In this document: piece after piece, positions 27,037 to 60,858 of the stretch
Layout: every line of letters begins with the position of its first letter
Position numbering within the stretch: the first letter of the stretch is position 1
DNA from: Geitlerinema sp. BBD 1991-9
GTDB lineage: Bacteria > Cyanobacteriota > Cyanobacteriia > Cyanobacteriales > Geitlerinemataceae
Assembly (NCBI GenBank): GCA_001657325.1
Contig: LWRO01000017.1
Location: 1-64,000, forward strand
Direction of reading: 5' to 3'
DNA length: 64,000 nt
The notes under the pieces: model-generated
Databases searched by the model: none
The model's input: only the letters and a program-made list of their open reading frames with translations
Told to the model about the DNA's origin: nothing
Made by a program: the position numbers and the translations under genes

Positions 27037-27468
27037 ATCGACTCCTTTGCAACCGAGAGTTTGTGGTCAAGGTAGACGCTTCTTATCACTCGTGACCGTA
27101 ATGACTGATAGAAGTTCTACGAAGTTCCCTCAGCTACAGTTCGCATCCTCAGCATTCCGAAAATTCAGATGGGGATTTCAAGCATTTTTTGGGATTTCTC
27201 TAAAAATTCTCTGCAAAGCTTGGATTGACAGGATTTCAGACTTTTTGACAAATCGACATCTTCGATCTAATACTTTGATGTTAATATCTTTGTGAAGTTA
27301 TAAAAACATTCAGACTAAAATCTTTGAGTATAATGAGGAGAAATTATTGTATATAGGCAATGTACATATACAAGTTGCGATAAACCAGGCTTACTTTTAT
27401 TACCTTATTAAGAATAAGTAGAATGGTAATTTAAGATTGAAAATCTAAAACAAACTGGAATGTAGTGA
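27037..27468. other. AT-rich intergenic region
   Basis: About 430 bp between the divergent dioxygenase gene and the methyltransferase pseudogene. Notably AT-rich (27280-27460). I see no credible ORF, tRNA or strong hairpin. Confidence 0.4.
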
Positions 27469-28251
27469 TGTACTCTCGAACATCAAACGAGCATAAACGA
27501 ACAGAAGTGAGAACCTAAGACAAAAGATTCGGGATGATTTCGATCGACTTTCTCTATACGATCGAGGAGGATGGAACCACAATAATCACTATCACCGCTT
27601 TTTGCTCGAACAGTTACCCAATTCATGCAAAACCGTTCTCGATATCGGCTGTGGAACAGGTGAGTTTTCACGCCTTCTAGCCACGCAAGTTGAAGAAGTT
27701 TTGGCCATCGACTTATCTCCAAAGACAATTGAGATTGCCAAACAGCATTCGGTAGACTTTTTAAACATTGACTTTCAAGTTGCTGATGTTTTACATTGGG
27801 TGCTTCCTTCAGAAAAATTTAATGCAATCGTGTCAATTGCAACACTTCATTATTTGCCAGTTCAAAAGTTACTCCCCAATTGGAAAGCCGCCTTGAAATC
27901 TGGAGGTCGGTTGATTATTTTAGATTTATGTAAACACGAAGCTTTACAAGATCTATTAAGTGACTCGATCGCCGTTCCTCTGAACTACTTACTTGACTCT
28001 TTCACAAGCACGACGAGTTTATACCAGCTCGTTGAGTGGCGCAAAAGTTAAAAAACAGGGTCTTCTGATTTTGGGTCGATCGGCTGATTTTAGACCCAGT
28101 CAAAACCCTTGCTGCAGGGGCGAACGGCCGTTCGCCCCTACCCCACTCTTGTATTCAGTTCAACAAATTACACCGTAATCTCAGGAGACCCAAAAAACAT
28201 TTGTGCTGGCGTTACTCAGTGGTTTGGGAGAAGTCAGCGACGATAAAATAA
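27469..28251 (+). pseudogene. Class I SAM methyltransferase pseudogene, split by a MITE
   Basis: Pieces of one methyltransferase can be read in order: MYSRTSNEHKRTEVR in one frame, then after a 1-nt shift near 27512 NLRQKIRDDFDRLSLYDRGG and the SAM motif TVLDIGCGTGEFSRLL with FNAIVSIATLHYLP (27497-27990). A deletion with frame change near 27985 follows, then YLTLSQARRVYTSSLSGAKVKK (27990-28057). MITE copy B interrupts here, and reading resumes at the second copy of the target duplication with VKKHLCWRYSVVWEKSATIK and a stop at 28249. An internal fragment of 149 codons remains open (TTG 27602 to 28051) but lacks both ends. The gene is inactive in this form. Confidence 0.85.
28058..28191. mobile_element. 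MITE copy B (inside methyltransferase pseudogene)
   Basis: 134 bp with imperfect terminal inverted repeats (GGGTCTTCTGATT / AATCTCAGGAGACCC), the central palindrome GGGGCGAACGGCCGTTCGCC, and an exact 8-bp duplication AAAAAACA-type: AAAAAACA preceded by one more A reads 28050-28057 and recurs at 28192-28199. Removing the element and one duplication restores the 3' end of a methyltransferase reading frame. Confidence 0.92.
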
Positions 28252-28596
28252 TCACAGGAAAAACAACATCGTCCAGACTTACAGTCTGTAAAAATACGAC
28301 TCCCATCAATTTTATCCGTGCCAAAACAACCCCAGCACTTTCAATCCTCTTTTCTCAGCCTCTAGAATTTGAGAGATTCAGATGTCTGACACTGTAACTC
28401 ATGCGACAGACAAACTCTCTCCCTTCCACGCCCCTTGATTCTCCTTTCCAAACCGTTAAGCTAAAGTTAAGCTGTACCCAGGCGTTACCTGAAATGCCAC
28501 ATCCGGTCACGGCTTACTGCATATTGCTCGCTGTTCGCTATTCACTATTCACTATTCACTATTCACTGTTCACTGTTCGCTGAAAAAGGGGGGTTT
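28252..28596. other. Intergenic region with degenerate heptad repeats
   Basis: 345 bp without a gene. Its right end (about 28530-28580) is a heptad array of TTCACTA/TTCACTG units ending TTCGCTGAAAAAGGGGGG, again directly before a start codon (GTG at 28597). Nothing else recognised. Confidence 0.6.
28534..28580. repeat. Heptad repeat array
   Basis: Six to seven tandem heptads CTATTCA/CTGTTCA, related to the CTCACTG arrays elsewhere in the window. Ends 16 nt before the GTG start of the next gene. Confidence 0.85.
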
Positions 28597-29040
28597 GTGG
28601 TGAACGCTGCCGAACAAGCCAAAAATTTTCAAGTTGCCAGCAAAATTGCGGCAGTCGTGAATCTTTTTAAAGGGGAATTTCCTGACTTGCGTTCGGATCT
28701 CAAACCCTGGACGAACGATCCTGAAACGCGCCAGATGGTCGATCCCGACTCGATCGACATTAGCTTCCACTTTCCCGGCTACAGCTTCCGCTGTCACAGC
28801 CGCAGCATCTTAATTCAAATTCGCTTTCACAGCCTAGAACCTGGAGAGTCCGAACGTCGTGCCATCGGCGTTGAAGTTGCTGGATTCAGCGGACTCGGAC
28901 GACAATGGCTATTTTCCACCATCGACAACTGGCAGTTCGTCGGTGACAAAGAACCTGTCCCCGAAGTTCAAGCTAAACTCAAAAACTGCTGCCGTCAGGC
29001 GTTAGAAATTTTCAATCGATCCCATCAAAACGGCGACTAA
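28597..29040 (+). CDS. Conserved cyanobacterial hypothetical protein
   Basis: 147 residues starting at GTG 28597 (another GTG follows at 28600). It has no signal peptide or membrane helix. Features seen: a helical N-terminus (AEQAKNFQVASKIAAVVNLFKGEFPDL), then beta-rich segments (DSIDISFHFPGYSFRCHSRSILIQIRF, RRAIGVEVAGFSGLGRQWLFST) and a Cys-containing C-terminal helix (LKNCCRQALEIFNRS). I do not recognise a named family. It converges with the guanidine transporter ATPase gene, with only 11 nt between the stops. Good codon use supports a real gene. Confidence 0.7.
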   Translation: MVNAAEQAKNFQVASKIAAVVNLFKGEFPDLRSDLKPWTNDPETRQMVDPDSIDISFHFPGYSFRCHSRSILIQIRFHSLEPGESERRAIGVEVAGFSGLGRQWLFSTIDNWQFVGDKEPVPEVQAKLKNCCRQALEIFNRSHQNGD

Positions 29041-34299: not shown

Positions 34300-34435
34300 G
34301 GTTCTATTGGAGTTAGGGGAATAAGTAGAGTTTATGACGTTGCAAAACCCTTGGTGTAGGGGCGAACGGCCGTTCGCCCCTACACCGACCTGGGTATCAC
34401 AAGCACCCCAATACCACCACAATTCCAAGAGCGCC
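34300..34435. mobile_element. MITE copy C (in the guanidine operon leader)
   Basis: 136 bp with diverged terminal repeats (GGTTCTATTGGAGTT / AATTCCAAGAGCGCC), perfect central palindrome GGGGCGAACGGCCGTTCGCC with arms extending to GTAGGGG/CCCCTAC, and an exact 8-bp duplication AAAAAATT (34292-34299, 34436-34443). It lies between the riboswitch terminator and the gdmH start codon, so it is transcribed as part of the 5' leader when the switch is on. Confidence 0.88.
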
Positions 34436-36189: not shown

Positions 36190-37314
36190 TTACGAGCGCA
36201 ACGGGTGCGATTCCGAATCTGACGACGCCATACCGGCGGGAACTTCGGTCGTCTCAGCTCGATCGAGGGTCGGGGTTCGCGAATCGGGTTTTGCTCGATC
36301 GTCTTGCGGTCGAGGCGAACGGCCGTTCGCCCCAATTGCTCGATCGAACCAACGCTTGCGGAGATCGGACGGTGAGGGCAAAGCGTCGCGACGTTCGATC
36401 GGATAGATACTCGCGAGAGTGACGATTGCACCGATCCACTGAACGGGGGTCAAAACTTCGCCGAGAAACAGATAGCCGAAAAATAGGGCGAAGACGGGGG
36501 TGAAGAACGTCAGAGAGCTGAGGCTCGTTAGATTTCCGCGAGCGGCGAAGTCAAAAAACAGTCCGTACGCAAGGGCGCTTCCGAAGACGGTCGCGTAACC
36601 GAGGGCGATCCAGTCGGAAACGACGAGGTGTTGCCAGGGTTCTGATTCATACGACGCTGACAATGCGAACAGTAGCAGTCCACCGAGAATCATATGCCAT
36701 CCCGTCGCCACCACCGGATCGGCGTGTCGCGAGACTTTCGGCATCATCACGGTTCCGACTGCCATCGATACGGAAGCGATCAGCATCAATCCTTCACCCT
36801 GGAGAAACCCCCAATCGATGTTAACCGATGCGGCCGCGAGATCGGGGACGAACTGTTGCCGGAGCCATTCGTCTGGAAGTCCGATCGCGCTAATGCCAAG
36901 GATTCCCCCGATTAACCCCAATCCTCCCCAAAAGCCGATGAATTCGCCGAACAGCAGTCGGGACAGGACGGCCACGATCAGCGGTTGCGAGTCGATCGTC
37001 ACCGATCCCAAGCCTGCACCCGTTTTCACGAGTCCTTGGGCGAGACAGCCTTGGAACAGCGCTCCATCGACGAGGGCGAACAGTCCGATCCACAGCCAAG
37101 CTCGCCAGGTCTGGGGTTGCGGTCGATGGGAGATCGAGGCAGCGAGCAAAACCAACACGCCAGCTGGAACGAGCCGAATCCCTGCCATGAAAAACGGTGT
37201 CGTGTGGGGAATCACGCCTTTCATGGCCACCATAGCCGTCCCCCAGAAAAAAAACGGTGTGAGGAGGAGAAAAGCCCCTCTGTTCCATCCGAGGCGATTG
37301 GTGTTTCGATCCAT
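36190..37314 (-). CDS. EamA/DMT-family transporter
   Basis: 374 residues with ten hydrophobic helices in two EamA repeats (first about 12-150, second about 165-300), e.g. LTPFFFWGTAMVAMKGVIPHTTPFFMAGIRLVPAGVLVLL and TFFTPVFALFFGYLFLGEVLTPVQWIGAIV. Such proteins export or import metabolites across the plasma membrane; substrate unknown. The C-terminal tail (about 318-374) is unusual: it is hydrophilic and includes GANGRSPRPQ, which is encoded by the central palindrome of the local MITE family (36314-36331). The tail may have been gained by insertion near the original stop. Confidence 0.82.
   Translation of the reverse strand: MDRNTNRLGWNRGAFLLLTPFFFWGTAMVAMKGVIPHTTPFFMAGIRLVPAGVLVLLAASISHRPQPQTWRAWLWIGLFALVDGALFQGCLAQGLVKTGAGLGSVTIDSQPLIVAVLSRLLFGEFIGFWGGLGLIGGILGISAIGLPDEWLRQQFVPDLAAASVNIDWGFLQGEGLMLIASVSMAVGTVMMPKVSRHADPVVATGWHMILGGLLLFALSASYESEPWQHLVVSDWIALGYATVFGSALAYGLFFDFAARGNLTSLSSLTFFTPVFALFFGYLFLGEVLTPVQWIGAIVTLASIYPIERRDALPSPSDLRKRWFDRAIGANGRSPRPQDDRAKPDSRTPTLDRAETTEVPAGMASSDSESHPLRS
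36314..36331. repeat. MITE-core palindrome within a coding sequence
   Basis: GGCGAACGGCCGTTCGCC, an 18-bp perfect palindrome identical to the centre of MITE copies B-E, lies in frame inside the 3' end of the DMT transporter gene and encodes ANGRS. No terminal repeats are detectable beside it, so it is a fragment or an independent small palindrome. Confidence 0.75.
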
Positions 37315-57735: not shown

Positions 57736-57871
57736 GGGTCTGTTGGAGTTAAGGTGATAAGCAGAGTTTATGAAATTCCGAAATCGTTGTCGTCGGGGCG
57801 AACGGCCGTTCGCCTCGACAAGAGTCTTAGTATCATAGGCAATCAAATTACACCGCAATTCCAACAGACCC
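57736..57871. mobile_element. MITE copy D
   Basis: 136 bp with terminal repeats GGGTCTGTTGGAGTT / AATTCCAACAGACCC (one mismatch) and a central palindrome GGCGAACGGCCGTTCGCC. The flanks AAATTGAT (57728-57735) and AAATTTAT (57872-57879) match at seven of eight positions, so the duplication is slightly decayed. It lies 9 nt downstream of the stop of the glycosyltransferase gene. Inverted relative to copies A and E. Confidence 0.88.
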
Positions 57872-60722: not shown

Positions 60723-60858
60723 GGGTCTGTTGGAATTGTGGTGGTATTTGATTGCTTATGATACCAATATCATTGTCGGGGCGAACGGCCGTTCGCCCCG
60801 ACGCCAAGGGTTTTGGAGTCCCATAAACTCTGCTTATCACCCTAAGTCCAACAGACCC
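60723..60858. mobile_element. MITE copy E
   Basis: 136 bp with terminal repeats GGGTCTGTTGGAATT / AAGTCCAACAGACCC, central palindrome CGGGGCGAACGGCCGTTCGC, and an exact 8-bp duplication ACTTTTGG (60715-60722 and 60859-60866). Located between the RTX gene and recQ, which converge on it. Same orientation as copy A. Confidence 0.92.

Follow-up and report, generated by a model that had tools for sequence, protein, structure and literature searches.

An ISL3-type MITE inserted near the end of a decayed class I methyltransferase gene in a cyanobacterial genome

Background

When a short repeat lies inside a broken gene, it must be asked whether the repeat is a mobile element whose ends can be fixed to the base, what enzyme moved it, and whether it was the cause of the damage or arrived afterwards. 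Such a locus is present in G000:C105:1-64000, the 64,000-nt stretch of DNA analysed here (the window), which comes from a 5.98-Mb cyanobacterial draft genome of 113 contigs. (The parts of the interrupted gene and of the element in it are on the + strand unless stated otherwise.) Gene inactivation by MITEs in cyanobacteria is listed in a review (PMC10969869). In Microcystis aeruginosa PCC 7806, a 187-nt ISL3-type MITE with 9-nt ends and 8-nt direct repeats has been described; ISL3 was inferred to be its mobiliser from the matching ends, and insertions were found in sbp, livG, and a 23S rRNA gene (PMC11448079). Insertion of ISL3-type MITEs into genes, with duplication of 8 bp, is known from Microcystis already.

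The methyltransferase gene and its lesions

The body of the interrupted gene, identified by profile match and orthologue alignment, occupies positions 27506-27985 and reads as a single open frame from SENLRQKIRDDF to SIAVPLN. In a profile search Methyltransf_25 covers 1-97 of its 97 positions (E 1.8e-20) and Methyltransf_11 matches with an E of 1.1e-19; the Rossmann domain and the DxGxGxG motif of class I SAM methyltransferases are both present, the latter as DIGCGTGE. The closest intact relative within the same family is Zarconia navalis LEGE 11467 (G004:C23), whose orthologous protein is MNENLTQKIRNDFDRL...TLSQARRIYTNSLRGANVRKHLFWRYSLVWKKSV. A codon-by-codon comparison with this gene indicates that the start codon has been lost, since AGA is found at 27503-27505 where Zarconia has ATG. 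Both the sequence and the list of open reading frames place an in-frame TAA just upstream (27494-27496), and from there up to the TTG at 27602 the frame contains no other ATG, GTG, or TTG. The first-pass annotation of this DNA had instead proposed a 1-nt shift at the N-terminus. The N-terminus that it proposed, MYSRTSNEHKRTEVRT, matches no orthologue, and the frame of the body is unbroken back to SENLRQKIRDDF, which corresponds to the orthologues' MNENLTQKIRNDF; the shift is therefore replaced by a lost start.

The internal deletion that had also been proposed is borne out by the alignment to Zarconia and by the comparison of three orthologues at the junction (27986-27992, with breakpoints ambiguous by a few bases). 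Relative to Zarconia there is a net loss of 83 bp, which removes about 27 codons and shifts the frame. The shifted reading (ORF 27602-28051) is closed by a TAA at 28049-28051, 5' of the MITE, while the C-terminal segment in the original frame, YLTLSQARRVYTSSLSGAKVKK, can be followed by alignment and orthologue comparison from 27990 to 28057, through the first copy of the target site duplication. An orthologue at E<1e-50 is present in only 3 of 58 relatives, and the genome itself contains no second orthologue, the best other match within it being 34%. The methyltransferase gene is accessory, and its loss here is unremarkable. The same gene is independently broken elsewhere: in Scytonematopsis contorta (L066) it is cut after TLSQA, and in Brasilonema sp. 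UFV-L1 (L070) it has a frameshift near the C-terminus.

The insertion and its boundaries

The MITE itself is 134 bp long (28058-28191), as defined by the alignment of its copies and by the empty site in Zarconia, and it entered the gene within the final 17 codons. It is flanked on each side by a perfect 8-bp duplication, AAAAAACA, read directly from the sequence at 28050-28057 and 28192-28199; given the base composition, chance alone would put an exact 8-mer at both of these places with a probability of about 2e-5. A duplication of 9 bases is ruled out because the ninth bases differ. Sequence and copy comparison place the left terminal inverted repeat, GGGTCTTCTGA, at 28058-28068 and the right one, TCAGGAGACCC, at 28181-28191 on the - strand; read inwards, GGGTCTTCTGA and the reverse complement of the right end, GGGTCTCCTGA, match at 10 of 11 bp. 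At 134 bp the element is well within the size of a MITE (less than about 500 bp) and cannot hold a transposase gene, and it has the terminal inverted repeats, target site duplication, and multiple dispersed copies expected of one. Sequence searches revealed a palindromic core, GCAGGGGCGAACGGCCGTTCGCCCCTAC, at 28114-28141 (no strand assigned), which occurs also alone and in other MITEs.

In the Zarconia alignment a single AGAAAGCA stands in place of AAAAAACA-MITE-AAAAAACA, and identity resumes on either side; the interruption had already shown up as split matches. (It should be noted that Zarconia is another genus, at a dS of about 1, so this site represents the ancestral state and no recent empty allele.) When the MITE and one copy of the duplication are excised, the sequence reads YLTLSQARRVYTSSLSGAKVKKHLCWRYSVVWEKSATIK and ends at a stop at 28249-28251, giving the protein junction SGAKVKK|HLCWRYSVVWEKSATIK*. 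By orthologue comparison, the stranded tail of the gene at 28200-28251, taken together with the duplication, encodes HLCWRYSVVWEKSATIK and retains the original TAA at 28249-28251. It had been predicted that excision would join SGAKVKK to HLCWRYSVVW and so rebuild a conserved C-terminus, a prediction that would be undermined by orthologues with a different sequence at this place. The prediction passes this test: the motif HL[FL]WRYS[VILM][VI]W is found at the rejoined position in 15 of 15 intact cyanobacterial orthologues, the uninterrupted site of Zarconia matches the join, and a Chloroflexota homologue (L079) has the motif there as well.

Additional evidence for the boundaries comes from the rest of the genome. 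The element has an estimated 20-30 copies elsewhere, judging from the matches listed; about 15 of these are full or near-full, mostly at 80-92% identity, and others are more distant. An alignment of the copies spans their whole length, with GGGTC at one end and GACCC at the other, and most of the aligned full-length copies have an 8-bp duplication of their own, exact or with one mismatch and different in sequence each time (for example CTTTTTCG, ATTTTCAA, TATTTTCC, AAAAACAT, ATGCTCCC, AAAATTTC, and GAAAAGTG). Because of this, the boundaries of the MITE do not depend on the gene in which this copy is found. Taken together, the duplication, the empty site, and the multi-copy alignment fix the ends of the MITE and agree with the earlier placement of an element inside a decayed class I methyltransferase gene. 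The locus is thus a clean case of MITE insertion, in which the duplication, the empty site of a relative, and a conserved protein motif agree to the base. It leaves the understanding of MITEs and of this methyltransferase family unchanged, being well documented but ordinary.

As RNA, the element folds far more stably than shuffled controls on both strands (z of -4.1 and -3.6), as its palindromes, terminal and internal, would lead one to expect; a search of 27400-28700 against Rfam gave no match.

Decay of the gene and the order of events

The gene body has no internal stops in its 160 codons (27506-27985), and of 57 columns that are invariant in the other orthologues 3 are changed, compared with 0 to 7 in intact genes. 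Pairwise dN/dS is 0.15-0.17; a pair of intact genes equally far apart (L015 and L064) gives about 0.12. The branch of the gene has accumulated about 46 amino-acid changes versus 30 for Zarconia, a 1.5-fold excess in a three-way count that is a weak measure and times no event. The death of the gene is recent relative to the split from the other genera. Given the low dN/dS and the completeness of the Rossmann core (Methyltransf_25 1-97/97) in the shortened frame, it could be argued that translation from the TTG at 27602 to 28051 still yields a working protein of 149 amino acids and that the locus is no pseudogene. This is highly improbable, however: the start codon is lost, a conserved N-terminal segment and the WNHNNHYH motif lie 5' of the sole remaining start, the shortened frame is without both the 27 or so deleted codons and the conserved C-terminus, and the terminal branch of the protein exceeds that of Zarconia by a factor of about 2.4 (0.37 vs 0.15). 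Very probably, an accessory methyltransferase gene that once encoded about 225-230 residues was inactivated by a lost start, a net 83-bp deletion, and an ISL3-type MITE.

The first-pass annotation held that the insertion could be dated relative to the decay of the gene. Here it went too far, as there are three lesions that the sequence does not order, and MITE-first and MITE-later histories both fit. That the MITE hit an intact gene and killed it, with the start loss and the deletion following, is somewhat unlikely. A MITE insertion before the deletion would have harmed the C-terminus, replacing the conserved HLFWRYSVVW tail with foreign residues (read-through SGAKVKKQGLLILGRSADFRPSQNPCC..., ORF 27993-28178), and the tail 3' of the MITE is well kept; against this, the copy has 6 private substitutions in 134 bases while the gene body has no internal stops and private changes at only 3 of 57 invariant columns, though counts this low, with the age of the source copy as a confounder, do not suffice to establish an order of events. 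That the deletion or the start loss came first, so that the MITE entered a dead gene without further effect, is a real possibility, if short of an even one. Once the deletion had occurred, an insertion would no longer affect the protein, because the stop at 28049-28051 already precedes the MITE, directly 5' of the insertion site, and the gene is one that few relatives possess and that is broken or truncated in Brasilonema and Scytonematopsis; nevertheless, the opposite order also fits the sequence.

In all, the copy studied differs from the consensus of the other copies at 11 positions, including the 6 private ones. Dating the insertion by substitutions was rejected, since some of the differences are common to another copy (C58:322971) and divergence of the source copy is inseparable from later change. 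Several of the private substitutions are clustered within about 12 bases at 28074-28086, where TGAGGTGATAAGC has become TGGGTCGATCGGC and CGATCG has been created; this suggests a clustered change or conversion.

Relation to ISL3 and the mobilising transposase

A candidate for the type of transposase involved comes from G002, a member of another genus in the same family. This genome contains a 1254-bp ISL3-family insertion sequence, starting with GGGTCTTCGGAGTTTGAGGTGATAATAGTA, whose transposase reaches 340.9 bits with the profile NF033550 transpos_ISL3 (cut-off 180). Its left end, GGGTCTTCGGAGTTTGAGGTGATA, agrees with the left end of the MITE family over 24-25 bases and is matched exactly by the copy at C86:18935; the left end of the copy studied here differs from it at several places, and at the right end the resemblance extends over about 8 bases only. 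Copies of the insertion sequence are flanked by 8-bp duplications (ATCGTCGA, CAACTTCG, and GCGATGAT; copies L235, L240, and L241), while L237 has a 7-bp duplication and L238 and L239 have none. G002 also has 150-bp MITEs that carry both ends of the studied family. (Loci in G002 that match 30 bp of the right end exactly were considered as a possible autonomous parent and rejected, as those with a recognisable partner end are MITE-sized, about 150 bp.) The element thus shares ends with an autonomous ISL3 element as well as an 8-bp target duplication. A helper transposase in the same genome was not found: neither the Pfam profile PF01610 nor a protein search at E<=1 detected an ISL3 transposase in the 113-contig draft. 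G002 has such a transposase, and G010 has an interrupted one. A helper in the same genome is not a defining feature of MITE origin, but its absence limits any claim of present mobility.

From the ends and the length of the duplication, an ISL3 transposase is the likely mobiliser. An ISL3-family DDE transposase would act in trans on the GGGTCTTC... ends of the MITE and make an 8-bp staggered cut, at the methyltransferase site in A/T-rich DNA; repair of this cut would yield the AAAAAACA duplication. The helper would since have been lost from the genome or be missing from the assembly, and the MITE appears to be stranded there. Since no ISL3 transposase was found and yet many copies have intact duplications, the element could instead have been moved by a non-ISL3 transposase still present in this genome. 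This is improbable, given that the ends and 8-bp duplications agree with the ISL3 elements of G002, that a MITE/ISL3 pairing is also reported for the Microcystis MITE (PMC11448079), and that no longer element with the MITE ends was seen at 16 left-end and 21 right-end sites in the genome, not all of which were extended.

Comparison with other systems

The ISL3 assignment provides a second lineage for the ISL3-type MITEs reported in Microcystis. Like the element there (PMC11448079), the present one is non-autonomous, has imperfect terminal repeats starting GG(C/G)TCTTC and 8-nt repeats, lies in genes, and forms a stem-loop; the two differ in length (187 vs 134) and are likened by description rather than by sequence alignment. 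Microcystis has its ISL3 helper, and its strains differ in their insertions, whereas in the genome studied no helper was found and no movement was observed; such MITEs persist in a genome without a detected ISL3 transposase. With ISL3 insertion sequences the MITE shares its GGGTCTTC... ends and 8-bp duplications; unlike them, it has no transposase gene and is related by its ends only. Nezha (Zhou et al. 2008, as cited in PMC10969869 and PMC3733652) is also a cyanobacterial MITE.

The centre of the element invites a different comparison. Most copies of the MITE have the core GTAGGGGCGAACGGCCGTTCGCCCCTAC, a GTAG palindrome like those of the GTAG-tagged REPs of cyanobacteria (PMC3733652), and several cyanobacterial genomes have this palindrome by itself as well. 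Unlike those REPs, it lies inside an ISL3-type MITE here, and its appearance is that of a GTAG-tagged repeat for which MITEs serve as hosts.

Apparently exchangeable centres and related repeats

One MITE backbone occurs with two different palindromes in this genome and with a third centre in a sister genus. A wider picture can be drawn, tentative and rather unlikely as it stands, in which several ISL3-type MITE families have a lost transposase and exchangeable centres, free palindromic repeats nest in them and hitch-hike, and the methyltransferase insertion is one instance.

Within the window, GTAGGGGCGAACGGCCGTTCGCCCCTAC or close variants are found at 28114-28141, 34356-34383, 57795-57816, and 60778-60799. 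The palindrome is central in at least two MITE families of the genome, with ends GGGTCTTCTGAG... and GGGTCTGTTGGA..., and related MITE-like sequences that carry it are found in G010 and G013; in G019, G046, G047, G052, and G057 it apparently stands by itself. Another central palindrome, GGGGCGTCATGGCAATGCGCCCC, is found in the same backbone at C85:221570, C35:30379, C97:90143, and C70:8020 of the studied genome (G000), and in G002 (L173-L177) the backbone has a C-rich centre. The second family (GGGTCTGTTGGA...CAACAGACCC) is represented in the window by two MITEs: the one around 60778 has a perfect 8-bp duplication, ACTTTTGG, and the one around 57795 is flanked by AAATTGAT/AAATTTAT.

A near-perfect copy of the palindrome at 36312-36333 is in frame inside a gene for an EamA-family transporter (36190-37314, - strand), where it sits in the poorly conserved C-terminal tail; the orthologues from G002 and from three further genomes lack it. 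Finally, 14-base tandem repeats, TTCACTATTCACTA..., occupy 28528-28576, just 5' of the gene at 28597-29040, and similar CACTGCTCACTG arrays are found near another MITE copy (L284).
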